Assembly: GCA_023078555.1 (NCBI GenBank)
Contig: CM041203.1
Span: 2,185,481 to 2,249,480 of the forward strand
Direction of reading: 5' to 3'
Length of the DNA stretch: 64,000 bases
Source of the DNA: Ulva prolifera
Taxonomy: Eukaryota; Chlorophyta; Ulvophyceae; Ulvales; Ulvaceae
Below are positions 12,200-64,000 of the stretch, in pieces (the stretch's first letter is position 1; every line of letters starts with the position of its first letter). The notes beneath the pieces were generated by a model. The model had not been told where the DNA came from, searched no databases, and saw only the letters and a list, made by a program, of their open reading frames with translations. The position numbers were made by a program, and so were the translations under genes.

Positions 12200-14191
12200 C
12201 TATATTCGAATGCCAAGAGCCTCGATTTGCTGTTCCATGCTCTGGCATTTGTGATTGATGTCACTCAGCGCACTCAACTGATTGTCTAATGTGCGCTCCA
12301 TCTGGGCAGCAGGATCGCCCCGACTCACTTGGGAGTCTCTAGCTGCATTGAGTCTTGCAATAGATTGAGCAAGCTCCTGTGCCACCCTGCGCAAAAGTTC
12401 TTGTTTCTGGTGCAACGCTACCCTGGCATCGGGGACAAGTCACGGCACACCAAAGGATTCTTTAAAGACGAGTGGATATATCTACCAACATGTCATGGCA
12501 GTTTGTGAGGGCCTTGAAACGCACTGGCTCAATTGCTCTGACAAAGCCACAGCTCGATCATAAAGAGATATGCGCTTTGAATCGACTGGGTCTCTAAATG
12601 GCTGCTCCTCCTCAAACAGCTTGCTTGATTCATTTTCCATATCATCGACTGTGCTGCGGATCTCTCCCTGATGTGCTTCTAGCATATCTAGTTTCTTGAG
12701 CAGGTTTTCTTGCAACTCAGAAACTCTTACTGCTTCTTGCCCCAGCTGCGTCATATCTCGCCTGCAATTACGCAACAAAAATGCGAAACACATAGGCAAC
12801 TCCACAACACTGCACACGAGGGATGTCACAGCTATGCAGTTCGACTTGTGGCACCTGTTCTGCAGAATGTGGCGGTCCCAAGCCTCCAGCTTCTCGGCCT
12901 CATGATCAAATTGCTTCACATACAACTCTAGTTCATCCCGCCAATGTCGCAGGATTGTTCCAACACTCCTGCCGGAAAGATCTGCCAACGCAGCCGCGGA
13001 CGCAACATCACGAGATCCAGGAGCAGAACTGCTACCTGGGAATGTTGCGCCACTTGTCCCTGCATTGCTCGACGTTGACACGGTGATCGCCCCAGTCGCT
13101 GCGCCGGAAGAACCTGGCAGCCCAAGCAGCGGACTTCCAGCTGCCGATGATGAGCTAGGGACGAGCCCCGAAGATGCGCCGAAAAGCAGAGAGCTAGAAC
13201 TAGGTGTCGATGCTGGTGTTGAGCTGGGGACTGCAAGGCTTGCTGATGAGGCACCAAACAAGCTTGCAGCTGCCGGCTGACTACTGCTGGAGAAGAGGCC
13301 CCCCGCGGCTTGAGACGCAGATGCATTGGGCGTAGACGCAGGGATGGCACTCGTAGTGCTGGGGAGTGACGCCTGACTACCTGATGCTAGGTTACCAAAC
13401 AGAGATGCAGAAGATGCTGGGGCAGATCCGAAGAGGCCTGAGCTAGAAGCTGCACTTGCTGGTGCTGCAGTGGTCTGCACGGAAGTCGTCAAGGAAAAGG
13501 GCTGTGACGTTGGCGCCACCACTGCTGATGCACTTGATGTGGAGCCTGGCATGGAAACTGCGTTTCCAAACAAACCTGACGCACCAAACATCTGTTGACT
13601 GGAACTTGCTGGCAGTCCAGCCCCGAATAGGGACTGCGCTGGCGCTGACTGAGCTCCGAATAACCCGGACGGAGCGGCTGTCGGCCCAGCACTAGATGCG
13701 CCAAACATGATGCCTGAGGATACACCAAAGAGCGAGCTCGATGAAGCACCGAACAAAGATGATGCAGATGAAGCACCAAACATTGGGGCTGCAGAAGTCA
13801 GCTGGGCACTGCCCGAGAGGGTGGGCATTGCACCACCCCCAAACAGGGATGCACTTGTGCTGGCTGCAGCTGACACAGTAGATCCGCCAAATAGGGAAGA
13901 AGGGGCTGGAGCTGCTGATGACTGAGCAAGCATCGAGTTTATAGCACCAGAGCCTCCAGGTGTCGAAGCGCCAAACAGCCCAGCGTTTGGTGCGGCACCA
14001 AACAATGAAGTTCCAGTAGATGCTACACAGCTGCCACCGAAAAGGCCTCCTCCGGAACTGGGGTTTCCGAAAAGGTTGTTCCCGCTGGCGGGAAAAGTCG
14101 CATTGCCGACACCGAAACTCGTTGACTGGGGTTGGGATGAGGCAGGTGCCCCAAAGAGGCTGGGCTGACCAGATGAAGATGCGCCAAACAT
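12200..14191 (-). CDS. NUP62: FG nucleoporin NUP62/Nsp1
   Basis: Central-channel nucleoporin. Exons 14191-12855, 12761-12525 and 12422-12200 join in phase to 598 residues. Roughly the first 385 residues are low-complexity Ser/Ala/Gly/Thr with many LFG, MFG and FGA repeats, which bind transport receptors and form the permeability barrier. The remainder is the Nsp1-type coiled coil: SVGTILRHWRDELE, then AEKLEAWDRHI, then DMENESSKLFEEEQP. It matches the Nup62 segment that trimerises with Nup54 and Nup58 and begins with a similar ILNKW-like motif. An in-frame TGA directly upstream of the ATG at 14191 fixes the start. The length is normal for the family. Confidence 0.93.
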
Positions 14192-16378: not shown

Positions 16379-17996
16379 TATGTACGGTGACAAAGGACCG
16401 AGGCCAGGCATCGAGCCCTTTCTCGGAATCCACTCGCAAATCCACTTACTCATCCATGGCACTAGGCCGGGCACAAGCGTGTGCCACAGCCCTGCCGGTG
16501 ATTCCAGCCAACGATTGAAGCCCCGCACGGAGCACACTCGCATTCCCTTTGCACAACGCCACACTCACCCGGCGCAAAGCATTCGTCACAAACAAAGCAC
16601 GGTTCACCTTACCACACCGAGACGCAACCTCCGCCAGCCGATTCGAGTGATTCATGGCAGGCTGTCCCAAGCGAATATGCGTCTCATGCGATAACAGCAC
16701 AAAACTATACGCATCAGGGTCGTACAAACGATAACCAGTGCGTTTCTGCAGGTCCCGCGTCTCCGCAGCACCCCCGTCCTCCCGCGCCGCTCAGCCGCAA
16801 TAGGTATCAGCACAGGGGTTCACAACCGACACATCCCCTATGCACAAAGCGTCACCCGGCGGCATAAACATGATGTCCCCCAGTTTCTCCTGGGCCACCG
16901 CCCTGAACACCCGCTCCAGCGCCGTCGCCTGCACGGCAGCGGCCTGCTCCCCATGCCCCGCCGGATCCTGACCACCCGGCGCCGCTGCCGCCGCGGGCGC
17001 CGCTGCCGCCGCCAGGGCCGCAGCCTGCGCTGCATCTGGCGAGTGGCGCCCCATCCGGGCGCTGTTTCCAGCATCAGCGTCGGCGGCCGGAGCAGTCGCA
17101 GGTACCGGTGCCGCGTCCGCACGCGCGACCGGCGGCGGCGGCGGGGCTGCAGGCATCGGCTCCGCGGGCAAGGTCGCCCCACGAGAAGGGCCCGTGATCT
17201 GGGAGGCGGCTGGGGAGGAGCAGGGGGCGGACACGGCGGGCCAGCATGGATCTGCCTCAGAGCGGCCGCGAGCCGTGCGCGGACGAACGGCGCTGTGCGC
17301 GGGATGCGCGTGGATGCCACACATGCGTGGGACCCGATCTCGCGCCATTGGTTTTCAACGATATTGTGGCGCGAAGTCCACGTCCCCGCATTGTGTGTGC
17401 AATTCATCGCGTGGTCGAGATCATGCGGCTGTACGAATGTGCCACATCCGCAGCGCGAGCCGACTGCATTGGGAGGGGCTGGGAACAAGCGTAGGAGACA
17501 CCTGATGCACAGCATGAACTCAATGTCAGTCATGCGCAGCGCGGCAGTGTGCTCAACCAAAGGGTGGCTGCACGGCAAGCACAGCTGCGAAGCCGTGCCA
17601 AGTTGCATGCACCCTCGAGCGTGGTGACATCATGGCTGGCAAGCAGTGCCGCCTGGCGGCGCAGGGCAACCACCTTGGTGACACGCTGCTGCATACCAGG
17701 TAACACCTTGGCGATGGTGTCGCCGCTCGCCGGGCAGCTCCGGATGGAGCTGCTGAGCGACGTTGAGGGCCTGCCAGGTTTCCTGCAAGTGTTGCCCGTG
17801 CGGCCCCCAGAACGGCTGCATGCGCTCGGGGCCTCCTGCGAATGCCTTGTGGCTCACCGCAGATGCAGCGAGGTACGCTCCGTCTGCGACCTCCGGCGGC
17901 GTGGACATGACGCCCAGGCCACCGAGGCGCGCTGGAAGGACGGCTTGTGCGGCCGCACGAGGATCGTCCTGCGGGACTTGCATGATGACATTCACC
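16379..17996 (-). mobile_element. 5'-truncated non-LTR retrotransposon (copy A), broken open frame
   Basis: Reading on the minus strand from 17996: the post-RT region (LPARLGGLGVMSTPPE), then QRVTKVVALRRQAALLASHD, then a Cys/His knuckle (CGCGTF..HDLDHAMNC..RHNIVENQWREIG). An Ala/Pro-rich spacer and GDIMFMPPGDALCIGDVSVVNP follow, then the terminal block (SFVLLSHETHIRLGQPAMNH to VSVALCKGN). This order is that of the C-terminal part of LINE-type polymerase ORFs. At least two frameshifts and a stop break the frame, so it is dead. The reverse transcriptase core is absent (5' truncation). The 3' tail, a degenerate TATGTAC, lies at the left. Confidence 0.85.
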
Positions 17997-18575
17997 TGTA
18001 TGTATGTATGTAGTTACAAAGGATAGAGGCCGGCATCGAGCCATTGCTAGGAATTCACACGCAAATCCACTCACGCAGTCATGGCACTAGGCCGGGCACG
18101 AGCACGTACCACAGCTCGGCCGGTGATGCCAGCCAAAGATTGAAGCCCCGCACGGAGCACAAGAGCATTCCCCTTGCACAACGCCACACTCAACCGGCGC
18201 AGAGCATTCGTCACAAACAAAGCACGGTTCACCTTACCACACCGAGACGCAACCTCCGCCAGCCGATTCAAGTGATTCATGGCAGGCCGCCCCAAGCGAC
18301 CATGCGTCTCATGCGATAACGGCACGAAACTATACGCATCAGGGTCGTACAAACGATAAGCAGTGCGTTTCTGCACGTCCCGCAGCACAGGGGTTCACAA
18401 CTGACACATCTCCTATGCACAAAGGGTCACCCGGCGGCATAAACATGATGTCCCCCAGTTTCTCCTGGGCCACTGCCCTGAACACCTGATCCAGCGCCAT
18501 TGCCTGCGCGGCAGCGGCCTGCTCCCCAGGCCCCGCCGGATCCTGACCACCCGGCGCCGCCGGCGCCGCCGCCGG
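17997..18575 (-). mobile_element. 5'-truncated non-LTR retrotransposon (copy B)
   Basis: Near-identical to copy C over the terminal coding block and 3' UTR. It begins within the Ala/Pro-rich spacer (GGQDPAGPGEQ), contains GDIMFMPPGDPLCIGDVSVVNP, and ends in a tail of TGTA repeats as read on the plus strand (17999-18013). Relative to copy A it lacks roughly 55 bases between the VVNP block and the terminal block. Its tail abuts the 5' end of copy A directly. Confidence 0.85.
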
Positions 18576-18995
18576 GTGTATGTATGTAGTTACAAAGGAC
18601 AGAGGCAGGGCATCGAGCCGTTGCCAGGAATACACACGCAAATCCACTCACGCAGTCATGGCACTAGGCCGGGCACGAGCACGTACCACAGCTCGGCCAG
18701 TGATGCCAGCCAAAGATTGAAGCCCCGCACGGAGCACAAGAGCATTCCCCTTGCACAACGCCACACTCAACCGGCGCAGAGCATTCGTCACAAACAAAGC
18801 ATGGTTCACATTACCACACCGAGACGCAACCTCCGCCAGCCGATTCAAGTGACTCATGGCAGGCCGCCCCAAGCGACCATGCGTCTCATGCGACAACGGC
18901 ACGAAACTATACGCATCAGGGTCGTACAAACGATAAGCAGTGCGTTTCTGCACGTCCCGCGTCTCCGCAGCACCCCCGTCCTCCGCAGCACCCCC
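18576..18995 (-). mobile_element. 5'-truncated non-LTR retrotransposon (copy C)
   Basis: Carries the terminal coding block (YRLYDPDAYSFVPLSHETHG through LSVALCKGN) and 3' UTR, ending in a TGTA-repeat tail at 18578-18590 that abuts copy B. The right boundary, near 18995, is where similarity to the Pro/Ala-coding stretch stops. It differs from copy B at only a handful of positions, so both are recent. Confidence 0.8.
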
Positions 18996-20177: not shown

Positions 20178-23100
20178 ATGGTGTCTGCCGATATCTCATC
20201 CCGGCAAAAGCTGGGCAGTAGCGCCCGCGCAGCACCAGGAGCCACGACGGGGCTACTTCACGCAGACCCTGAGCGCCTACAGGTGCGTGAGCATCGGAAC
20301 TGCATCTGTTTGGGATACTTGAAGGTGTTTGATCTGTGTAGTGGGCGCAATGGTGCTGTCAGGTTGCGCGTGGTCGCTACTCTGTGACATCATCTGCTGT
20401 AGGAACGTAACTGCCCGTCCGCTGGCTCCTTGTCGCGGTCAGTAGAACCATTAGCCAGTTGTGTATGTCCAGGAGTCACTTCAGCAGAAGATCACTGGAG
20501 CCCTGGGGCAGCTGTCCCGCGCTTCAGAATTGTTGTCAACACAGACCGACCTAGCCAGTACTACGCAGCTTGATGATATTCTCGAAGAAGTTATACGTCA
20601 ACAAAATGAAATCGCTGATAAGCATGAATCGTGGGCTGAAGCGGTGGGAGGCGATGCGACACGTACTACGCGACTGGCGGGGATTACGGAGGGATTCGCC
20701 AAAGCCGCCACACATAGATGTGAGTTTCGCATGCTGCACTCTAGGCTATGGTGTGTGTCAAATTTTGCGGGGATGCCTTGTGGTTTTACTTACGCGGAGG
20801 CATTTGCAGTCGATGGGCAGGAGCACAACAAGGAGCTTTACTACGAACGGACCATACAGACGCTCGAGCAGCAGCTTATAGCGTTTCAGAGCGGCCTTGC
20901 CAATGGATCACCAGTTTTCGATATGCGCCTTGCCGAGGCCAGTGAAAACACCCCGTCGCAGCTAGAGGACAACGACGATCAAGAGGTGGCCGAGTACATG
21001 AAACGATGTCGGTATGTGTCAGACCAGGATCTTGTCTCCTGCGTTTTGTGCGGTCATGGGGCTGCTCACAGTTATTCATGTGCAGGATTCCTTCACATGC
21101 AGACCTCATAGATGAAGACAAAACGTTTCAGCCTTTCTTCCGCAAGGTTCATTACGATATCCTTGGCTGCTTCTTCTTCTTTTTCTTCGTCGTCGTCACC
21201 GGTGCCTATGCATACATACGCGTGAAGTACTCCATCTGGCCTCTTGATTACCTGGCTTGGTATGGTGCTGTCGTTTTCGGCATTGAGATGATGGGTGCCA
21301 TCTCGATCATTTTCTACGGCATATGGCTCATTGCACTTCCAGACAACTCAGACATCATCGCTAGGGAGTCTGATCCTAACCTGCGTCGGCACTACCATAT
21401 CCGCGTTCTGGTGCCATGCTACTCTGAGCCATTGCCAATTGTCCAACGGACGGTGCTCGCGGCGCGCCGTGCGATTATCCCGCCAGGTTGCACAGTGTCG
21501 ATTTATCTATGTGACGATGGCAAGAAGGCTGACAAGCGCAAGTTTTGTGACAGCCTGGCCAACACTGCCGGCCCACAGGTGATATATGTCACTGGCCGCA
21601 AGCGCTCTGCTGGCAAAACGCTTAATGGCAAGTCTGAGAACTTGAATCACTGCCTGAAGCTCATTTACGCTGAGGATCGGGGAGATGACGAGGTCCCCAA
21701 CATTCCCTTGACGGAGGTCATGTGCCTCTTTGATGCTGACCAGTCATGCTCCCGCACGTTTTTCACAGCTCTCATGCCGTACATTGACAGTGGCGACAAT
21801 GTGGCAGTGGCCCTTTCGCCCCAGCTCATGTTCAATGTGGACCCAGACATGGACATATTCAACCATCAGAACGTCCATTTCTGGGAAAAGATGCAGCCAG
21901 GCATGGATGCCCTCGGTTTCATCTCACTCACAGGAACGAATATGATTTTGCGGTGCCGCGCTCTACAAGACTGCGGCTGGTTCCCAGTGGACTCGGTCAC
22001 TGAGGATTGGGAGCTGGGTATGCGTATGGTGCGCTCCTATCTGGGATGTCCCGACAACGTGCAAAGGACACAGCAGGTGCCAATGCTGCACTCACTTGTT
22101 TGTGTGTGCGCAAGTTGTAAGTGCATGAGTGCCGCGGTGACAGACGGCAATGAATGTTGATGTGCAGAAGAAGTGGGGTTGGCAGTGCCGCTATGTGCAG
22201 CAGTACAATGCGATTGGTGAGGCGCCGGAAGAAGTGCGACAGATCTTTCAGCAGCGCTCCCGTTGGTGCAAAGGCCATTTCCAGACGTTCTGGTCCAGCC
22301 AGTGCCCGCTTGTTGATCGCCGCCTGGGGATTGTCTTCCAGCTCTGCTACTCATCCACCTGCCTCTCGTACATCTCTGCAGGTATGATCCCTGTTGCACA
22401 TTTGACTAGGCTGGCCGAGGTACATGGCCACCACCCTCTGCGCTGGGCCGGGGGCAGGTTCCGATGGAGCCGGCTGAGACTGACGCCAGGTCGTGTGTGC
22501 AGCGATTGCCATCCCGGTCATGACGCTCGTGCCGATCATCACGCTGCTCTTTGGCTACTTCCCGATCGCGCTGAACCTCCTGACCGTCATCGCCATCACG
22601 GTGTACTACGTGGCGCTGCACTCTGTGACGTACTACTGCCGCTCCATGCGCGAGTTCCGCGCTCTGTGGCTCGCCAACGTCGGCACTTCGATCATGTTCT
22701 GGCCGTTCGGCAAGGCCGCGCTGCTCACGCCGTTCAAGCAGATCGCCGGCAAGGGCCTCACGTTCAAGTCCACCAGCAAGGGCGCCCAGCGGAGCTCCGT
22801 CAGCCTGAAGGAGATCGGGCCGTCCCTCCTGCTCGTGCTCCTCTCCATCCTCGCCTTCCTCTGCGGCATCGTCGACTTTGACATCAACGTCAACGCGCCG
22901 AAGGCGATCGCGCTGTGCTGGGTGCTGTACAACATCGTGCCCCACCTGCTGCTCCTCACCTATGCCCGCTTCGGCTCGAGCGCTGTGCTGCGCTTCATGT
23001 GCACGTTCATGCTCTACACGCAGAGTCTCATCTCCGTCCTGGCCCTCATCCTGCTCTGGGTGCTTTACCCCCGCGAGGAGAACTACGTCCGCGCGACTGA

Positions 23101-25094
23101 CCTCTCGCTTGATTTCTTGTACGCGCAGCGCGGTGGCCTGATCATGGCGCCGTACCCCGTCGACTGGCGCAAAACCACGGAGGATACCTTCGGTGAGTTC
23201 ACCCAGACGCAATACGGCGCCCTGGGCGAGCCCGTCTCGATCAACCGCACGACCGTGAACTTGTCTGGCGGCTTCTTCACTGACGGCGAGATCGGGCCTG
23301 TGAAACTGACGACGCATGTCGCGATGACGACGTCGATGCTGGCGTGGTCGCTGCTGGACTTTCAGCAATGGTGGGCGAAGGACGAGGAGCGGCTGAATAG
23401 CGCACTGGACCTCGTGCAGCACGGCATGGAGTACGTGAAGGCGTGCTACGTGCCCAACCTCTCCAACCCCAATGGCACAGCGGCTGACCAGCTCGTGTTC
23501 CAGGTATGCAGGCGGCCCCCATGACAGCTGCTGTGAACATTCGCTTGCTCCAGGCTATGCCATGACAGGGATGGATACATCACGGCTGTTTAGTCGTGAC
23601 GGCTGCCATGGTCGCTGCCTGACTGCATCTTGAACGCAGGTGGGTGACATCCGGCTGCAGCGGCAGCAGTGGAACCGGCCGGAGGACGTCAAGGAAGATC
23701 AGCCGGTGCTGACTGTGCCGATGGGCAGCAGTGTCACAGGCGCCTCTTCCCCCGCCGACCTCGCGTCTCAGATCGTCGCAGGTGTCGTGTCTGGCACTCT
23801 TGCGCTGTACAAGTTTGACCGCATTGAGGACCCGCTTGCCGAGCAGAACATCGCGCTCTCCCACCGCCTGTTCCAGTCAGCCCTCTACAGCCCGACTCTG
23901 TACACCAATGCGGAAAACATCACCAGCCTGCCGGTAGCAGACCACTACCCGTCCAACTCCTACCTCGACGACCTCTTCTGGGCGTCAACCTGGCTGCTCC
24001 GGGCGTCACTTGACGATTACGGGGGATTCCCGAACAAGAATTCGACCCACCTCGCATTCTACTACGCAGCATGTCGCACGACGTTTGAGCTCGCGTACGC
24101 TGAGCGCGACAGCATGGCGGTGTCCTTGGACTACCTCAACAACGTTGCCCTCGTACACGCTGCCGTCATCACGAAAGACTGGTCCTTCCACTCAGCGGCG
24201 CAGTCGTGGATCTGGGACTGGATCTGCTCCGGTGCCGTACGCTATACCACGTTCGGCCGTGCGCACCACCCTGAGAGCATGATGCTCGGGGATACCGTCA
24301 TGGCTGCCTCAATCGCTGCCACTTACGTGCACGCAGCCCGGCAGTGGGGCCCAGCAGAGCTCAACGGTTATTTCCTCACAGGCACGGCTTCCCCATTCTA
24401 TTCTTTTTACCGCTGTTCCAGACAGCGCCATATTCATCCCCCAGTGGTTCACATGTGTCCCTGTGCATCATCTGGGCTCACTGGGCATGTCTCTGCAGGC
24501 TTCCATTGCTTCGCAGAGGCTCAGGGGCGCCTGCTGCTCGGCGTCAACTTCCGCAAGCCGCTGCTCACAGGCTTCAACTCGCGCGACTACAGGCGGTTAT
24601 GGCACCGAGGCGCGTCGTGCCCCAGCTACCCCTCCCCGTGCGATCTATCCGCAGCGACGACAGACGTCGACAACGTGCACCGCCTCAATGGCGCCCTGCT
24701 GTGGCTCCCAGGCTTCCGGGACTCCACCTCGGACCACCGCGTACAGGGGGCAAATGGTACTGTCGTGTCCTTGGACAACAACGTCGCTGTGCCCCTCCTC
24801 TTCGCCGCTCTTGCACACCGTGCCGAGACAAATGCGTACATGGACTGCCTGCAAGGGCAGGGAGCGCTGATCCCGCACCCGGTGTGCCGGTTTGACCGGC
24901 CCCTAAGCACACGCCTCGGGCCCGACTCTGTGCCAGTTGCAGAACGGCCCGAGCGCTTCCGCGGCCTCTGGTCGGAGTCCGACTCTGAGGTCTTCCCGCC
25001 ACCTCCACCTCCTCCGCCCGAGGCTGAGGTTCTTGCCGCACCCGTCCTGCAGGAGACTGCCATTGTGCCGGATGGTGCGCCGCTACCCGCATGA
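20178..25094 (+). CDS. Cellulose-synthase-like GT2 glycosyltransferase fused to a GH9 endoglucanase-like domain
   Basis: Eight exons (20178-20282, 20473-20719, 20810-21011, 21086-22028, 22168-22381, 22503-23503, 23640-24366, 24499-25094) join in phase to 1344 residues. Residues 35-180 are a coiled-coil-prone cytosolic region, followed by two membrane helices (about 205-270). The processive GT2 domain has all landmarks: DDG at 328-330, DAD at 401-403, TED with Asp492, and QRSRW at 528-532. A multi-helix membrane region follows. Exon 6 runs without interruption from those helices into a GH9-like fold: LSGGFF at about 824, SYLDDLFWASTWLLRAS, then WHRGAS at 1181-1186. The usual GH9 acids appear lost (TDGE instead of DAGD; VSLDNN instead of the Glu-containing NEVAxDYN). 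The C-terminus is acidic and Pro-rich. It probably makes a beta-glucan at a membrane. The fused domain may guide or bind the product rather than cut it. Confidence 0.9.
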
Positions 25095-25895
25095 CGTACC
25101 ATAAGCATGTGCCTGCCTGTAGCCTGCACGTGCATTGCTTTGGCTAAAGTGTGGTTAGGTTGCCATGGAAGAGCTGCAGCTGTGCTGATATGTGCAGGAG
25201 TTGTGGCGACTGGAGCTGTTGTTGCTCCTGCTGTGGCTTCACCACAGATCCCCCCGCAGGTGCCGCAGCAATAAGCCTGTCTGGCACACGCAGAGATAAT
25301 TGACGCTGGTATTCGCCCCGTGGCTGCTGCGAATGTAGTTTTCAGTAGCTGCAGTAATTGTGTGATATACTGGTGATTCCAGTGATGCAACAGGGGGGGG
25401 GGGGGGGGGGGGGTTGGTATTTATTTGTCTGGCACAGGTTTAGAGAGGGGTACAAAAAGCCAGGCTGGTGATGCCAGTGAGTCACAATTTAATTTGGCCG
25501 TTCGCCCGCAGCCCCGTTCCGCTGTCGAGTTTTGTGAACATCCTTGCGTATGTCAACTGCCCTAGGTTCACAAAGCAGTGCTCCAGCTGTTCGTTTCTGG
25601 CACAGGCTAGAAACCCGGGCACAAATATGTAGTCCATCAAATGCCGTGCACAGAGCGAGGGCTGTGTCATACAGTGGTCAGGATTTAAATTTCTATGGGC
25701 ATATCCGTCATGCTGCAGCACTTTTCCAGGCACAGGTGGCATGAAAGGCCCCAGTGTGCTTCGGTTCACCACGTCCTTTACACGCCACGGCAAAATGGTG
25801 TGAGGTGTCTGCGAATACGGCATTGTAACATTTTCTGGGTGAATGGTGGTATGACATTGGGATCCCTCAAAAGGCGACAATGCTTACAGTTGCAT
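25095..25895. other. 3' regions of convergent genes, with poly(G) run
   Basis: Lies between the convergent stops of the GT2-GH9 gene and the GST. A 21-base G run occupies 25393-25413. A 132-codon minus frame (25482-25880) sits in the presumed GST 3' UTR and has no recognisable domain. Confidence 0.5.
25393..25413 (+). repeat. poly(G) run of 21 bases
   Basis: Uninterrupted G homopolymer in the convergent intergenic region. Confidence 0.95.
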
Positions 25896-28142
25896 TCAGT
25901 CTCTCAAACAGTCGATGAACCAGTTCAGGTGTGCCCGCAGCTGTCGTGCAGCAGGCAGTGGTAGGTCCCGAGGCACCCCAACCCGATCTCTCAAGTACTC
26001 CAGAGACACTGCTACGCCTTCGATATGGCCTTGCTTCCGGGAGACATCGTCCTGCATGGGCATGCCGATCAATTCTGGCTGATGAGTCATCACCTGCCTC
26101 ATTCACCCCTATGCCTCATCATGCAGAATCACCCATGATGCCTCCATCTCACCGCAAGCCAGGCGGACATGAATATCTCAACATGCTGGGTCTCGCAGCT
26201 CGATATACATGCCTCTCTGACAGCAAAGGTAGGAGCAGCACCTTGAATGCTTTCACAACATCTGCACAGGTGTCTGGCCCGTCCAGCAGTGCAGCTGCTA
26301 CGCATTGCAGCGCAGCATCCACATGCTCCACGACAGCTTCGTTTGGCACTGCTGATGGGTCCGATAGCGGGGCCCACACAGGCCTCGCGCCAGGCTGGCC
26401 GGCTCCACGTGCTGCGAAGCGTGCGACTGCGGCATGGTTCTTCACGAGCCTGTAGGCGGCACGTGCGCGATCGGACTCTGGCGCCTCGCCTGGGCTAAAA
26501 ACCTCTGGGAGGCTTGTGCCCGTCAGGGGCGGCAGTGGCAGGTGCCAGGTCTTCCCGTCCTGGCCATTGATCGCGCTTGCAACTGCCTCGCCGTCCTTGT
26601 GCATCTCACAGCCTGCAAAGCCGCTGAGCGCCCTTTTGAGACACATACGGCCACGGATGGGGGGGTACTTGAAGCGATTCACTACCCCCAGTCGGATCGC
26701 TGATAATCGAGTCGGTGCAGCGGCGCAGGGAAGCCGCGTCAATGTGATGTGTCGTGCTGCTGAAACGCACCGCCAAGCTGGGGGGGCAGATCGTGGCAGT
26801 GCGTGTAGTGGTCCGAACGGGTCGCAAGATACGCCGGTCGCTGCTCCATCGCATCGAACCACGACTCGATGCCTGGAAACTCCCCCGTGCCCCTCATGTG
26901 GAATCCTTTGTAGTATGCGAGACTGGCCACCATGCGCTCAAGGAATGGCGCAAATACTGCGTCCACGTAGGAGAAGTCCTTGCCCATGAACAGGGGCCCC
27001 TGCAGCACACAAGCACCGTCAGGGCGGCCAGATGCACATTGACACTCATCCCCTGCATGTGACAGCCACGACCTGGTCTTTCTCTGTCTGCACTGCAACG
27101 TCTAGTGTGTGCTGTGAGACTACAGGAGCTACAATGCGCACATCAAATGCGCTGTTCAAGTCTGCACTGTGGGGGGCGAAGTGTACACCTCAGAGCTCTG
27201 GAGCTCCTGATCAACCGTCTTCAGCGTCTTCACAAAGCCTGCCTTGTTCATGTCGTGCATCCAGCTGGAAGTGAGCCAGCCCATCCAAGAGGAGAAGAGT
27301 TTGCGTTCCAAGCCAAGGAGATCCTCTGCTTTCCTGTATAGGAGGATATCTGTAGCCCTGGCATAGATATCATAGGTTGCTAACGTGGTTCACATATTGA
27401 ATCAACGCCTGATTCAATGTAGCGCAGTTGATTACACACCTGATGCGGTCGGTTTCTGGTGGGAGCAAAGGAACATCTCGGAACTCGTACTCGAGAACCT
27501 TCATGATCTCAGCAGATTCTGTCATGACCTGGCCATCTAGCTCAATCACTGGAAGCAAGCCGCGGGGCACCTTCGCCAGGAATGAGTCCGGCTTGTCTCC
27601 ATAGCATCGCATATTGATCTTCTCGACTGCACAGTCGCACAAGAACATGCTGAGGTAAGACATCCATCAGAATTGGTCGGGGCTGACCGTGGCGTTGTGC
27701 AGTGCTAGCACACCTGTGTAAGGAATTCGCTTCTCTTCTAGCAGCAACCACACGCGCTGGCAGTATGGACACCATGCAGCGTGATCTCGATAAAACTTCA
27801 CGCGTGGCGTCCCATCTGTGCCAAATAGCCTCAGTAATGAAAGCGGGCTGGCGTCCCCCTGTATTCGATTGATGGCTGGGTTAGTGGGCTTGTGGTGATC
27901 AGAACACTCACACATCACACAAGCCAGCGCAGGTTCACCCGCACGTCCACACCGATTCAAGGAGTGACACCCTCTAGAATGATGCCAGATGTGTGCATTT
28001 CGATTGCAGACCGGATTAGACTGCGCACGTTCGCTGGATCAGCATATGCTTCAATGACACTCGGGTAGCCTTGCAATTGCTCCTCCAACAGACCCCAACT
28101 CGCGACCGCCTGGCTGAATGAGGTGGATATTGCAGCCTTCAT
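25896..28142 (-). CDS. Glutathione S-transferase family protein with CPYC active site, plastid-type
   Basis: Thioredoxin-fold GST like the large plant plastid GSTs. Exons 28142-27969, 27858-27714, 27626-27440, 27333-27189, 26999-26771, 26612-26242 and 26051-25896 join in phase to 468 residues from the ATG at 28142. The N-terminal domain has VKFYRDHAAWCPYCQRVWLL with the redox/GSH-binding CPYC, then the cis-Pro region GLLPVIELDG and the GSH-binding TESAEIMKVLE. The helical domain follows (FMGKDFSYVDAVFAPFLERM, IESWFDAMEQRP). A family-specific tail ends LRDRVGVPRDLPLPAARQLR. A preceding SWGLLEEQL segment matches the region before the fold in plant homologues. More 5' exons (transit peptide) may lie at 28.2-28.6 kb but could not be phased. 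Confidence 0.87.
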
Positions 28143-46424: not shown

Positions 46425-49400
46425 TTAATTACTCACCAGCTCGAGAGTGCCTGTATCTCCGGAAGCTATCGAACTCAAAACCATATAGCTAGAGGATCGC
46501 TGAGGAACCAGTCTGACACTGCTTTCCTGCTCCAAACTCATTAAGCACTGATGCGAACTACCACGTGCTACCAATGGTGCTATTGATGGAGATTCTTCCA
46601 CTTGTGGATCTGCCGCCGTGAACGTCGACAGCGCGACGAAATGGGTCACTTCAAGATCTGCCTTACTCCGAATTGGCACTATAGAGAGCTGATTCCAGAA
46701 AGGAATCCCGCTCTTGCCAAAATTCAGAATCCTCCCTGTATAGTTACGCCCGCGGCTGAGTGCCCGGTCTAGTGCAATTGATGCCAGGCTCGGATGCCTT
46801 CGTGCGCCTGGTGCAGCTTGGAGAAACCTGCACAGAGCTCTGCATGTCAAGTCACTATGTAGCCAGATGATGCAAGTCTCCACTGAGGTACAGACGCACC
46901 GGCAAGGCTGGCCAACTGCATCATCGAAAGCATATCCAGTTTCATCACTGAACTTCGAGTTTACGTAGACTACTGGCTGTCCTTCGGCCTTGGCATCAAG
47001 GATGCACAGGGCACACGGACTGCTGTACAGAAGGCTTGCCAGAGCTGCCTTCTCATGAGTATCTCCATCATCACCGCCTGTCAGCCTGCATGTCTCCACG
47101 AATCAGGACGTGTGCTAAGCCAGCATGGCAGTCACTCACAGCAGGGCTGCACAAGTCACCGGTACACGCCACTGCATTGCCAGCACATTGGTTGGTGGTT
47201 GCAAGGGGGCGCACGACGCAAGCAGGGCCGCCGGAAGAGGATGGAGGTCTTTAGGGACAGAGCTGCAGCTGGGCACTGCCGCCTTCAGTGCTGGCCCGGT
47301 CTTCCCCGAGCCACGGTCGTCCTCCGCGCCGCTGTCCGGAGCTTCATCCACGCGCGATGACTTTTCTGGCCTGACAGAGGCTGCATCAAGCATGTCCATG
47401 TTCTCAGATGAAGGATCGGGCATGATTGCTCCGGTTGGTACCACGTGCATGAGACCAGACCGTGGCCGGGGGAAGGCTGGCTTCACTTTCGCAGGCGGAG
47501 TGCTGGCAGGCCGTGACTGCAGCAGGAGCTGAAGGGCATCAGAGAATGAGCCTGACGCTTTCATGCCCCCATTCATCTGGGGGTGCGCTGGTGCCGATGC
47601 CTTCGAAGTGCTGGCATCCAATGGGGTGTCCACTGTGCCTGATGAGCTCGACTCACCGGGCTCCTCCTCAACAGACGGCTCGAGGTTGACCAACGGCTTT
47701 CCCAAGGAAAGGTTGGCCATTGTAGGCGTGTTGGAATGGACCTCTTGCCTGTGCAGGCGTGGGAAGGACAGCTCACCAATGTCAGGGAAGTCACTGAGGT
47801 CAGCATCCACCTCCGTGATCGGCACCGTGACCATGACGGGATTGATGCTCTGCGCAACTTTGTCCAGCAGTTGCTTTGCCTCTGTGGCTTTCTTGCATGT
47901 GCGAGCCGAACGGAAGGTCTCCTGTCGCAAAGACGGGCTGCTGGAGTCCTTTCGTGCAAAGCAACCATTGACCTCATTAGCGGTTGCAGAGAGCTGCCCT
48001 TGCAGACCTGCAACACTGCCTGGAGCAGACGATCCAGTCTCTACAAGCACACCCCTTGCTCAGCTACAGGACCAAAGCACGCACTGGCAGCACACTGACA
48101 CCTTTGAGGAGCAAATATGGGATGCGCCCTCTCAGATATCAAGTCATATGTCAAGCAGAAACCGACACACCTGACCAGGGAAACATGAGCGATGACGGCC
48201 GCTCCATGTTTTGCACACCCTCAGCTGCAGTATCAGACTCATCGGTGCCACTGGACACCAGCGACTCCACAGACGAGTTCACATTGTTCTTTTCCACCAG
48301 GGGCTGCACTTCCGGATTTGCTGGAGCCATGGCCCCTACGTTTGCAGTCGCATCAAGGCTAGGCCGGGAGTCGCGCGACACACGGATGGGGATGGGGTGC
48401 GACCTCTGAGACGGCCAGACAAACTCGTCATCAGACAGCGAACATGTGACATCTTCAGTCACCTCAGCGTCTGGCTTCTCGCGCTCCACTGGTGCCGGCT
48501 GGAACAGCTTGCTTGCAGTCGCCATCTGGTAGTAAGGCGCAGCCCGCAGGGCTTCCTCTTCGTCGTCTCCCTGGCTCTGCTCCGGGCTGTTCATTGATAA
48601 CAGGGCATGCGCCAGATGGGCAGAAGTGTAATCACCCTGCACTTCCTCGGCTGCAGGGGCGAGCATCGGCACACATGCGTCCGCCTGAGGAGTGAAGCGT
48701 GGCAGGTCCTCTGACTCTGCGCGCCGCCACGAGCGCGCACGGTCCGACAACGACGTCCGGCGGTCCACCGAGCGTGCCACCGGCATGTTGCGCGGCATGG
48801 ACGGAGGGGGCCGAGCCACCCCGACCGCCGCTGGCACGCTGCAGGGCTGCGCTGACGACATGCTGCGGCGATGCGGGGGGACGTACGATCCAGGCCGTGT
48901 TGGCGGCGAGGCTGCCACCGGGCTCCCCACCGGGTGCCAGGCCCCGTCAGAAGTAGACGCGATGTGACTGTACACTCCCGACAGCGAGGGGCGGCTGCGT
49001 GGAACGGTAAAGGTGTGGCGGCGTGTCGTCACCCGAGGCACACTCCGGCTGGCCGACGGTGCTGCAAGCTTCTCCACCGGCACGCTGGCAGACTGCACAA
49101 GGGCATCAGGTGATCACATGGATGCATCACGTCCTGCGAGACTACATCTGGCCTCATATCAGAGACCTTGTGGGGCCTCCTGTGGGCAACAGTTGATGGG
49201 CATGCAGCTGCCGTTCGTTCATGCACTGCCGGCTTCCCTTTTCATGTGAAATACGCTGCATTGGTGTAGTGTACACTCATGTGCCTGGCACTACCGGAAC
49301 AAGCGGTGGTGGGCCCTTGTGTCAGACAGCGCATGGTCCTGCTAGTCAAATCAGGCGAGAGCATTGCATACCGCGAGGGCTTCCAAGGCAGCCTGGCGAG

Positions 49401-55059: not shown

Positions 55060-57724
55060 ATGTCTGCTAAATCAGAGATCGGCCTCGTTGGACTGGCTGT
55101 GATGGGCCAGGTGTGGAGGCTTGGGCAAGTTTGTCGCGCGTTTGCGACGTCTAGTGACTGGGATGATTTGTCCTGACTGTCTCCATGCCGTGCAGAACCT
55201 GGCTCTGAACATCGCTGACAAAGGCTTTGCTATCTCTGTTCACAACCGATCTAATGACAAGGTGGATGCTGCAGAGCAACGCGCTAAGAAGTCAGGTGCG
55301 AATGGCGCTTTTTCTACACCGCAGTGCATTATCGTCGCACATTGGTCTTGCTGCCGATCATCGCACAAGCTTGAAGGAGCATAATCTATGCCATGAGTTC
55401 ATACTGCCTGTATGCTGCTTCTGCAGCGCATGTGTCCGTGCGAAGTGGTCGTCCACCTGTGCACTACCGTTCCCACTCGCGGCCCTTCCGTTCCCGTATG
55501 CTCTTAGCGTGTCATCTGCGCAACGCGTTGCAGGCCTGGACAACCTCACCGGATACAAGGAGATGAAGGACTTCGTAATGTCGTTGCAGAAGCCAAGGTA
55601 TGTTGGTCGCGTTTCGAACGACCCATCTTACCGGCTTCAACGTGCAAATTGAGAATCGCCAGTGCGCGACAGAGCCCATGAGCCCGTGCGAGGATCGTGC
55701 AGGCGCATCATTCTCCTGGTCAAGGCTGGTAAGCCTGTTGATGCCACCATCGATGGATTGATGGAGTATCTCGAGGAGGGTGACATCATCATTGACGGAG
55801 GCAACGAGTGGTACGAGAACTCCGAACGGCGCATGGAGAAAGTCGGGGAGAAGGGCATCCGGTACATGGCTATGGGAGTCTCCGGTGGTGAAGAGGGAGC
55901 TCGCAACGGTGTGTGACTGTGGCTACCACTCCCCCCTGCATTTAGCTTGACTACCAGGGGCCGGCGGACACATCTGCAATACATAGAGGCTGCACGAATA
56001 AATCAAGTAACTGAAGACAGTCCATTGCCCTGCGCACATGCTGTATACTAGCGCAGTCTCTGCATTCAGTAGCCCTAGGCTGTGTCCGAACGGGGCCGGG
56101 GCACTGCTACTCAGGCGTTGGTTGGGTATCGCGCCACAAGCTTGAGCTGGCACAGCTCCGTCTGTCTGTTATGGTGCAGGTTTACACATTTCAACCTGCA
56201 TCCCCTGCCATGTCCGCAATGCACCTGTGCCTTTCTTTCCATCCGTGTCAATACATGGTAGCTCCCCCCACCGTGTGAGCAGCTCTGTCCGCCACAGAAA
56301 CTTTCATGCAGGCCCATCTATGATGCCGGGCGGCTCTGAGGAGGCGTACAAGTACATCGAGAAGATCGTGACTAAGGTGGCCGCGCAGGTGGACGACGGG
56401 CCGTGTGTGACGTACATCGGCTCCGGGGGGTCTGGCAACTTTGTGAAGATGGTGCACAACGGCATCGAGTACGGCGACATGCAGCTCATCGCGGAGGCAT
56501 ACGACCTCCTCAAGAACGTGGGTGGCATGTCGAACAAGGAGATCGCAGAAGTGTTTGCAGAGTGGAACAAGGGCGAGCTCGAGAGCTTCCTGGCAGAGAT
56601 CACGTCCATCATCTTCACTGTCAAGGATGACAAGGGCAAGGACGGAGAGCTGGTGGACTATATTCTCGACAAGACTGGCTCAAAGGGGACAGGGAAGTGG
56701 ACTGTGCAGCAGGCTGCGGAGATGCTCACCCCAGCACCAACCATCGCTGCTGCCCTTGATGGCCGGTGCGCTCTCATGCACCTATGCTGATGCGAGCACG
56801 GCACCGACGTTGTTGTCATGTACATGGCAGAGTTTGCGCAGTGTGGGCTGCTGATGTACGCGGTGTGAACTGCGCACAGGCACTGAGGGCTGCTAGTGTA
56901 CAGGTACCTGTCCAGCATCAAGGGCCAGCGCGAGACTGCTGAGAAGTTCTACACGGAACTCGGCATGAGCGGGCCGAAGACCATGGACGTAGACAAGACA
57001 CAACTGATCAGCGACGTCCGAAACGCACTCTATGCCTCCAAGATCTGCTCATATGCACAGGTGAGACGTGGCCGTGGCGATCCAAAGGGGCCTCTCTGTT
57101 GGTGCATGCAAAGGTACCGCATGTCGTGGATTGCAAATGTCTGTAATGAGTGATGCTGCTTGCAGGGAATGAATGTGATCAAGGCCAAGAGTGACGCAGA
57201 GGGGTGGAATGTGGACCTTGCCGGCCTTGCCCGGATATGGAAGGGTGGATGCATCATCCGTGCTGGATTCCTGGACCGCATCAAGAGTGCGTACCAGAAG
57301 GACCCTAAATTAGATAGCCTGCTCCTGGACGAGGGTTTCGCAAAGGACTTGGTGAGCTTCTGTCTACCTACCTGCGCATTCTTTGTGTGGCAGTTGTGCG
57401 GTCGCAGCTGCCTCTGTGCAGTCGGAGTGCGCTCCGTAGTGACACGTGGTCTGTGCGTTGCAGGTAGAGCGGTACGGCGCATGGACATCCGTTGTCAAAT
57501 TGTCTGTTGATGCTGGAGTTGCTATTCCAGGCATCGCATCTTCCCTGGCATACTTCGACACATACCGCCGAGGACGAACCACCGCCAACCTGGTTCAGGC
57601 CCAGCGTGATTTCTTTGGATCACACACGTATGAGCGTACGGACATGGATGGATCGTTCCACACCGTCTGGGATGAAACATTCGGGTCCAAGGACTCGATT
57701 ACCACAACTGGCTACAACAGCTAA
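55060..57724 (+). CDS. PGD: 6-phosphogluconate dehydrogenase, decarboxylating
   Basis: Oxidative pentose-phosphate enzyme: 6-phosphogluconate + NADP+ to ribulose 5-phosphate + CO2 + NADPH. Eight exons (55060-55110, 55196-55295, 55534-55597, 55703-55908, 56312-56765, 56904-57060, 57166-57351, 57464-57724) join in phase to 492 residues, the usual size. The N-terminal Rossmann motif is [20 protein letters not shown], followed by VHNRSNDKV with the Arg that reads the NADP 2'-phosphate. Substrate/catalytic motifs are [28 protein letters not shown] and [17 protein letters not shown], which carries the catalytic Lys and His. The C-terminal tail [23 protein letters not shown] closes the partner subunit's active site. 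No clear transit peptide precedes MSAKSEIG, so it is probably cytosolic. Confidence 0.96.
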
Positions 57725-59183: not shown

Positions 59184-60086
59184 ATGATTTTTGCGTCCAT
59201 AATCGTATTTCTGATATGGCTGCTTGCGCGTGCACTTCTCAAGCCAACTGCTTCTTCGAAGCTGAAGTTGCTTTGCGTCTTGGGCTCAGGTGTGCGTCGA
59301 TGGGTCTCATGTGGTAGCAGTTCTAGCTCTGCTGTCAGCTGAAAGTCGTCCTATCTTCATTGCCTGGGCTTGTAGATGATGCAATTGTACATCAGATTCT
59401 GTGAAATATGTCGATGTTGATTGGAATGGCATGATCATGCGTCAATAAACACGCTGTTTTCTGTGGGAGCGCCCTGGCATGGCCAGCGCAGGTCATTGTG
59501 TTCCGGACACCAGTGTCCAGGCAAGGCATTTGCTGAAGATCCTATTTTCTGCTGCGCTGCAGGCGGACACACAGCTGAAATTTTCAAGGTCCTGTCTGCG
59601 CTGAACATGTCGCGCTTCAGCCCCAGGGTTTATGTCGTGGCTGATACTGACCGTCTTGGGATGGTCAAGGCCAACCACTATGAGCAAACGTTGGATCCAG
59701 ATGCCCAGGAAACAAACAAACCCTCTTACTGTGTCCGACACATCCCCAGGAGCAGGGAAGTGGGGCAGTCATGGGCTTCAAGTATCTTCACAACTGCGTG
59801 GGCTTTAATGTTCTCCGTTTGGGTGGTTCTCATTGAACGGCCTCGCTTGATACTGGTCAATGGGCCAGGAACTTGCCTGCCGATTTGTATGGCAGCATAT
59901 GCACTACGGCTGCTGTGGCTACTGGATGTGAAAATTGTCTTTGTTGAGAGCATTGCCCGGACTCAGAACTTGAGCCTCACAGGGAAGCTGCTACATTTGT
60001 TCAACGTTTGCGATCTTTTCTTTGTGCAGTGGCCAGAATTGCAATCGCAATTCCCAAAGACCAAGTTTGTAGGTAGAGTTTACTGA
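59184..60086 (+). CDS. ALG14: ALG14, membrane subunit of UDP-GlcNAc transferase for N-glycan precursor
   Basis: ER membrane anchor that recruits ALG13 to add the second GlcNAc to dolichol-PP-GlcNAc. Exons 59184-59289 and 59563-60086 join in phase to 209 residues. An N-terminal membrane helix (IFASIIVFLIWLLARALL) precedes the nucleotide-fold start LCVLGSGGHTAEIFKVLSAL, the ALG14 hallmark. Further family blocks are RHIPRSREVGQSW, LILVNGPGTCLPICMAAY, VFVESIARTQNLSLTGKLL and FFVQWPELQSQFPKTKFVGR at the C-terminus. Size and order match the single-domain ALG14 of other eukaryotes. ALG13 is not in this window. Confidence 0.95.
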
Positions 60087-63094: not shown

Positions 63095-64000
63095 TTACAT
63101 CTGGAAACCTGAAGTCCGAGACTGCAAATGCTCGACATAAATACTGTCGGCCATCTCGACGCCATCCGTCACATCTCCCACCATGATGCCAGCATGCACA
63201 CCAGCTCCTATCGCGACGCAGTGCTCAGGGTCAACATCTAGGGCATGCCGTTTGCACCCTGTCACACGCTCTAAAAACTCTTGTATGAAAGGGGCTTTGG
63301 TGGCCCCACCAACAAGCAGCAGCTGAGTGATGACTCGAGGTGGAGGCGAAAAGCGGTCTGCTGGGCTGGTCTGTGCTGGTTGTGCGCTATCGAAAGGATA
63401 GTGTGCAAATTCTAGATGATGCGCCTGCCCGAGTCGCTCAAGTGGGGACCACAAACGCTTCAAAAATGGCTCTGCCGCTCGCTTCAACTCTGACTGTGAC
63501 ATCTCGACCGTTATCGAAGCATCATCGTCGGTTGGGATCTCTACGCAGCATGTTTCTTGAGAGGAGAGGGTTATTTTGCAATGTTCAGCCAGCTGTCGCA
63601 AGCTCCTCCGCCGTGCAGCATCCACAAGCATGCTGCCTGCGGTGTCTGCACACACCGCACACACTCGAAGTACACACTTCGAGGTTGAGCAGCAGGCATC
63701 GAGGCCGGTTGAGCGTTGCCCTCTGTGACAACTGTGCCGGTCGCCATGCAGACACATCAATCATCCAACTCATGCCACAATGTGTGGCCTGGAGCATCGA
63801 GTGTTCATGTGCTGCATGCACAGGCACCGGCAGCATTATCTGAGCGTGCCACACCACAACGCACAGTGCACTGCAGTCTATGACAAGCCAGGTCAGCACG
63901 TTTGACAGTCAAGCACACCTGCTGGCAGCCTCCCATTTGCAGTCCACCACCTGACAATGTCAAAGTCCAGATCGATACCTCCCAGGCAATTGTCACCGTC
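63095..64000 (-). CDS. Hsp70-family protein, nucleotide-binding domain part; 5' end outside window
   Basis: ATPase domain of an Hsp70-like chaperone, read from the right edge. The first visible exon (about 64000-63920) contains GDNCLGGIDLDFDIV, equivalent to the Hsp70 block LGGEDFD. The next (about 63650-63095) has RQLAEHCKITLSSQ, the subdomain IIB helix. It then has LLLVGGATKAPFIQEFLERVTG, the adenosine/phosphate-2 region, and DVDPEHCVAIGAGVHAGIM, the end of the ATPase fold. The frame stops 31 residues after the GIMVGD motif. The canonical substrate-binding domain is therefore missing or lies in exons I could not detect. Divergence from cytosolic Hsp70 is marked. It may be an atypical plant/algal Hsp70 (Hsp70-8-like). 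Confidence 0.75.

Follow-up and report, generated by a model that had tools for sequence, protein, structure and literature searches.

A synthase and a GH9 domain in one gene

The 64,000-nucleotide (nt) stretch analysed here (the window; positions 2185481-2249480 of contig C8, in an assembly of 88.9 Mb and 44 contigs) carries at 20178-25094, on the forward strand, a gene in which a GT2 synthase is followed in frame by a GH9 domain. We refer to it as the window gene. The spliced model has eight exons, with GT-AG boundaries at all introns, and gives an open product of 1360 residues with its stop at 25094, rather than the 1344 residues given by a first-pass annotation of this DNA. The start codon, which is without independent support, is the least certain part of the model, and the N-terminal region (residues 1-185) aligns weakly with one of the paralogs described below, C1b. 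The parts of the gene, all on the forward strand, are as follows (TM, transmembrane helix).

20178..21085, +, exons 1-3 (20178-20282, 20473-20719, 20810-21011) with their introns; residues 1-185, N-terminal cytosolic-type region (splice model)
21086..22076, +, exon 4; TM1-TM2 (about 21159-21215 and 21282-21338) and GT2 domain (splice model, Pfam, hydropathy)
21513-21521, 21732-21740 and 21999-22007, +, GT2 motifs DDG, DAD and TED, in exon 4
22168..22381, +, exon 5; end of GT2, with QQRSRW at 22249-22266; TM3 starts here
22503..23503, +, exon 6; TM3-TM7, gating-loop-like motif FKSTSK (22763-22780) and start of GH9, in a single open exon
23264..23308, +, position of the GH9 base motif; SGGFFTDGEIGPVKL replaces GGWYDAGDHVKF (alignment with same-genome GH9 genes and solved GH9s)
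23640..24366, +, exon 7; middle part of GH9 (splice model, Pfam)
24367..24498, +, last intron; 132 nt, in frame, weak donor GTTATT
24499..25094, +, exon 8; end of GH9, proline-rich tail and stop
24600-24623, 24753-24761 and 24765-24782, +, exon 8 sites: WHRGASCP, a conserved sequon, and VSLDNN with the acid-position Asp at 24774-24776

Being in frame and having a weak donor, the last intron could be overlooked; its position and phase match introns of the paralogs C1a and C1b (column 1264, phase 1).

The first-pass annotation had proposed an in-frame fusion with DDG, DAD, TED and QRSRW all present, and had suggested a Pfam scan of the product. All four motifs were found (residues 328-330, 401-403, 490-492 and, as QQRSRW, 543-548), and the scan gave significant matches to both families in one protein: GT2 (PF13641) at residues 290-550 (E 1.9e-10) and GH9 (PF00759) at residues 781-1230 (E 2.4e-34; 119.8 bits against a cut-off of 27.7; profile 1-411 of 444). 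The exon said to run uninterrupted from the helices into GH9, 22503-23503, is indeed open, encoding the last membrane helices and about the first 140 GH9 residues with no break in frame, and an equivalent exon exists in two paralogs. Among solved structures, the first half is closest in sequence to BcsA chains (1e-21) and the second to endoglucanases, the best GH9 matches being chains 4zg8 and 3wc3, both from annelids.

Four paralogs share the fusion

Using tblastn of the window model against loci chosen from Pfam GH9 and GT2 matches, we found four co-linear relatives in the same genome, so that the family has five members in this search and its total may be higher. Two lie on contigs C3 (about 5.378-5.368 Mb) and C4 (about 872-880 kb) and are named after them; the other two, C1b (about 4.90 Mb) and C1a (about 3.04 Mb), are on contig C1.

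C1:4903750-4897613, C1b, fusion with GT2 motifs lost
C1:3040257-3034395, C1a, fusion with GT2 motifs lost

The C1a exons before about 3040257 and the first exon of C1b are unreliable and were excluded from all claims. The paralogs share 33-57% identity with the window gene over GT2 plus helices, and 40-48% over GH9. A single exon spans the GT2-GH9 junction in C1b (C1:4900752-4899719) and C1a (C1:3038488-3037458) as well, and the introns flanking it occupy the same alignment columns and phases in all three genes (653 phase 1, 1010 phase 0). In total, five of the seven window-gene introns match C1a and/or C1b exactly in column and phase (columns 207, 576, 653, 1010 and 1264). C3 and C4 have eight introns in common, with no exact position shared between their set and that of the other three genes. 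The paralog models rest on alignment with the window protein or with one another, and this may favour similar splice choices, but every site is still GT (or GC)/AG.

These data bear on whether the gene is an artefact, either of a splice model that joins two neighbouring genes or of an assembly join. We consider this exceedingly improbable. The junction lies inside one exon in three paralogous genes with common intron positions, the arrangement recurs in all five genes, and mis-joining of exons is very unlikely given the co-linear matches to both halves in the four paralogs at other sites of the genome; with these paralogs and shared introns, we reject an artefact. Bacterial contamination is likewise rejected, in view of the introns, the 6.1-Mb contig and the chlorophyll a/b antenna genes in the assembly. 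The latter gave 38 exon-level matches, the best of which strongly matches many solved chlorophyll a-b binding proteins, and the host is therefore photosynthetic and most likely a green alga. A search of the assembly for the RuBisCO large subunit gave no match, and the plastid genome is seemingly absent from it. Together with the co-linear paralogs, the two Pfam domains in one model bear out the proposed fusion and confirm it as real at the level of a single predicted gene product.

A GH9 tree of 13 rows, built without the C7 model and the C10 match, groups the five fused GH9 domains in a single clade (100/100) that excludes the seven further GH9 rows from this genome and an earthworm fragment. 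On this tree, the fused GH9 domains are of common origin. In a GT2 tree with 80 bacterial relatives, built without C1a, the four fusion rows also form one clade (99/96), which nests in none of the bacterial groups and has the window gene next to C1b (100/78). The simplest history suggested by both trees is one fusion event followed by duplication.

Of seven places in the genome that match PF13632, three are fusions; the genome list of GH9 matches holds none near the other four (C8:2688008, C1:5407552, C9:1596164 and C8:5185283). The GT2 matches at C1:5407552-5408301 and C9:1596164-1596913 have identical score, length and frame statistics, as would a recent duplicate or an assembly duplication.

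The synthase half is BcsA-like and falls into two classes

The best NCBIfam match of the window protein is CelA, the UDP-forming cellulose synthase (TIGR03030; 2.1e-36). The full-length equivalog score was not reached (125 bits against a cut-off of 699; profile 90-554 of 714), and we therefore call the synthase BcsA-like rather than a member of that equivalog. The gating loop of BcsA and CelA is defined as FxVTxK; FKSTSK of the window gene aligns with FAVTAK of BcsA, keeping FxxTxK with Ser instead of Val at the third position. The plant-type profile PF03552 had no match in the window gene at E 0.01. It matches a 216-residue part of the C4 paralog (1.5e-10); across the genome, the PF03552 matches found were limited to two exons, which belong to the C3 and C4 fusions and score just above cut-off.

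With the best 80 of 556 confirmed bacterial relatives, identity in GT2 reaches only 26-31%. Such distance would suit a synthase that makes another beta-glucan (mixed-linkage or glucomannan-like), with a pseudo-GH9 domain binding that polymer, and BcsA-like eukaryotic Csl clades with several products are grouped together in the accessible text of a 2023 preprint (PMC9915684). The cellulose synthase best match and the alignment of the loop with BcsA argue the other way, and we regard a different product as unlikely, if still worth weighing. A ready-made bacterial fusion was rejected as the source: none of the 80 loci of these best relatives had a GH9 match (1e-3) within the fetched flanks, in a search with a profile hidden Markov model whose control matches are circular, those genes having been part of its build. 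A viral origin was likewise rejected after three scans of viral contigs, two of which shared a query, gave no confirmed relative. In one scan of genome contigs, 72 stretches fitted a pattern and none was a confirmed relative.

The GT2 motifs and the FxxTxK loop are intact in three of the five fusions (window gene, C3 and C4). C1b and C1a are without them: DAD has become TAD and STG, and TED has become AEN and DEN, respectively, with no QxxRW and no FxxTxK. A DxD pattern match in C1a (TVSAGD) is in the wrong place, the residues aligned to DAD being STG. C1b has no GT2 profile match at 0.001, and its GH9 match is 6.2e-46. C3 and C4 are 74% identical in GT2 and 57% in GH9, and C1a and C1b 51% and 70%; the corresponding nonsynonymous rates (dN; NG86) are 0.20 and 0.39 for C3-C4, and 0.41 and 0.22 for C1a-C1b. 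By these measures constraint follows class, GT2 being more conserved in C3/C4 and GH9 in C1a/C1b. This makes C1a and C1b candidate pseudo-synthases.

The GH9 half lacks a full set of catalytic residues

Active GH9 enzymes have a base Asp in a DAGD motif and, towards the C-terminus, an acid Glu; the two stretches can be recognised in the aligned solved GH9s and in same-genome GH9s. In the fusions, DAGD is lost in five of five, the residues being TDGE in the window gene, EDGP in C3 and C4, NEGE in C1b and TEGE in C1a. All five also carry a two-residue insertion at the same place after the base motif, which suggests that the motif was lost before the duplications. At the acid position, the window gene has Asp (VSLDNN), C3 and C4 have Gly, and only C1a and C1b have Glu. 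The full catalytic set is thus kept in none of the five, and the acid Glu survives only in the two genes with lost GT2 motifs. Of five other GH9 domains in the alignment, three (gC4, gC1c and gC3b) have both sites intact; neither site survives in gC3, and the base motif of gC1d is altered. Altered GH9s are therefore common in this genome.

The first-pass annotation took the built-in GH9 module to suggest product handling coupled to synthesis, which would imply a bifunctional enzyme whose active endoglucanase trims the glucan or sets it free in the manner of KORRIGAN or BcsZ. The window gene retains the GH9 fold match and the HRGASC motif, has Asp at the acid position and also carries acidic residues close to where the base would be (TDGE), and the hydrolase domain of the tunicate fusion is described as having cellulase activity in one source as far as available (Blanc et al. 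2012, PMC3446292), contrary to another (PMC7464555). Against an active enzyme stand the missing DAGD in all five genes, the missing acid Glu in three of five (Gly in C3 and C4), and the intact sites of gC4, gC1c and gC3b in the same genome. We consider such a bifunctional enzyme quite improbable. Judged by its residues, the fused GH9 domain looks dead as an enzyme and would probably not cut. Of the earlier proposal, the product-cutting hydrolase is thus unlikely, given TDGE for DAGD, the two-residue insertion and Asp for Glu; binding or guiding of the product is possible.

The GH9 reading frame stays open in five of five fusions, and NG86 dN is below the synonymous rate (dS) for the fused GH9 in all five pairs computed, lowest for C1a-C1b (0.22/0.70), although NG86 is crude at dS of 0.6-1.15.

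Clusters of GH9 exon matches at C5:9568015-9644324 and C7:3348284-3357857 are apparently arrays of diverged GH9 genes with the base motif altered. In the two C5 genes that we modelled, it is EAGN.

C3 and C4 probably carry a second GH9 domain

Another GH9 lies directly downstream of the C3 and C4 fusions (C3:5368097-5366203 and C4:881385-884384). The loci of these probable second domains extend as follows.

C3:5368276-5366203, second GH9 of C3
C4:881200-884384, second GH9 of C4

In C4, the first exon of this GH9 has no in-frame ATG ahead of the domain. A phase-1 GT-AG intron at the same residue (552 nt in C4, with the join at 880647/881200; 290 nt in C3, with the join at 5368567/5368276) joins the second GH9 in frame to the fusion, and Pfam finds two GH9 stretches in the joined C4 product; we proposed the C4 join ourselves and then used it as the query for that in C3. 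The second GH9 of C3 has an in-frame ATG and is also compatible with a separate gene. On these models, C3 and C4 probably encode GT2-GH9-GH9 proteins. Both catalytic sites are kept in the second GH9 of C4, and neither in that of C3.

The GH9 domain is predicted to lie outside the cytosol

By hydropathy scan, the window gene, C4 and C1b each have two helices ahead of GT2 and five behind it; TM1 and TM2 of the window gene peak at 2.09 and 1.97. With GT2 in the cytosol, the odd number of helices after it would put GH9 outside. Lys/Arg residues beside the window-gene helices, with boundaries set by hand, number 3, 2/2, 3/4 and 1 on predicted inner sides and 1, 0, 0 and 2 on outer sides, which fits this orientation. 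After the helices, the five genes together have 25 N-glycosylation sequons, where shuffles lead one to expect 13.3; their GT2 segments have 3, where 4.4 are expected. A single sequon is conserved in five of five fusions. Collectively, these features suggest that the GH9 domain lies outside the cytosol. BcsA itself has four helices after GT2 and a cytosolic C-terminus, which is a PilZ domain. The one helix more than in BcsA would place GH9 at the channel exit.

Surroundings of the gene

Upstream of the window gene, 16387-18888 holds a 300-nt direct repeat in three copies (86-88% identity to the first) and a 192-nt repeat in two, and a run of 21 G lies just downstream (25393-25413). A Pfam scan of 20 open frames identified the following other genes in the window.

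12485-14191, -, FG-nucleoporin/Nsp1-like
26739-27101 and 27370-27666, -, GST exons
46428-47102, -, PAS
56146-56787, +, 6-phosphogluconate dehydrogenase exon
59421-60083, +, Alg14
63098-63760, -, HSP70 exon

A model for the fused protein

The window gene probably encodes a BcsA-like processive beta-glucan synthase, most likely of cellulose, whose external, non-hydrolysing C-terminal GH9-fold domain handles the emerging glucan; we hold this with moderate confidence. From its motifs, the GT2 domain would polymerise glucose from UDP-glucose in the cytosol, and, as in BcsA, the chain would exit through the protein's own helices. The GH9-like domain would sit outside at the channel mouth, as the odd helix number predicts, where, without cutting, it may bind the emerging chain, orient or space it, or keep several synthases together. 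One fused gene would have been duplicated, the window gene, C3 and C4 retaining the synthase while the C1a/C1b branch lost its motifs and may now provide accessory subunits.

Several observations weigh against this model. All five fusion genes come from one genome. GH9 dN/dS is high among the genes with an apparently active synthase (C3-C4 0.39/0.67, or 0.58; window-C3 0.63/0.77, or 0.82; window-C4 0.66/0.97, or 0.68); such values may reflect weak constraint and are equally compatible with a new role. The Asp of the window gene, or a displaced Glu, could in principle serve as catalyst. The helix count comes from a simple hydropathy scan in which, at a fixed cut-off, only three of the five paralogs show seven peaks (C3 shows five and C1a six), and the sequon excess is uneven, C4 having 3 against 2.7 expected.

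A broader version of the model can be offered tentatively. The hydrolase half may have been switched off before the family duplicated and then become a structural, glucan-guiding domain; working and dead synthases, the latter with the more constrained GH9, may co-assemble into one glucan-spinning complex; and two of the synthases may have added a second GH9, one of them intact-looking.

Comparison with known systems

Bacterial BcsA/CelA (PDB 4hg6, 5ej1; TIGR03030) resembles the window protein in its GT2 motifs and FxxTxK loop but has no GH9 domain. In plants, CESA and KORRIGAN (GH9A) are separate proteins and the GH9 is active. The fusion described here is similar in that a synthase would work with a GH9 protein, the two being fused.

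Cellulose making in green algae outside the plant line is poorly resolved, and a 2013 survey states, in its available part, that the Chlorophyceae genomes it analysed yielded no linear-complex cellulose synthases (PMC3797821). The fusions described here are candidate cellulose synthases of such an alga. The architecture has been in print since 2012: Coccomyxa subellipsoidea C-169 is described as having GH9/cellulose-synthase-like fusion proteins with four paralogs (Blanc et al. 2012, PMC3446292). As here, a green alga encodes GH9 joined to a cellulose synthase-like domain of the tunicate-like type, in several paralogs (four there, five here), and by architecture the window gene is a member of this known algal kind. 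Unlike the present genes, those of Coccomyxa, compared by description only, come without mention in the accessible passages of GH9 catalytic loss, dead-synthase paralogs or a second GH9. The open-licence literature, so far as its text was available, yielded no statement on catalytic loss in algal GH9 fusions. Nor did we come across a published account of the apparently inactivated hydrolase domain, the branch of pseudo-synthases or the probable forms with two GH9 domains, or of the tunicate parallel that they bring. The lost active site makes the purpose of a cellulase domain on a cellulose synthase directly testable, as binding without cutting.

The comparison with tunicate CesA-GH6, already drawn in the first-pass annotation, holds. 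The accessible text of a 2020 study reports that the catalytic Asp is not conserved in the GH6 domain of tunicate CesA, for which a new function was suggested, and that many separate tunicate GH6-1 proteins keep it (PMC7464555). Both systems join a BcsA-like synthase to a glycoside hydrolase domain with unconserved catalytic residues. They differ in that the tunicate fusion is separate, has GH6 rather than GH9, and is found in an animal host. This parallel suggests a common need at the channel exit. If the broader version of our model is true, the two would represent a repeated evolutionary route, in which a cellulase was fused to a cellulose synthase and its cutting was then removed.

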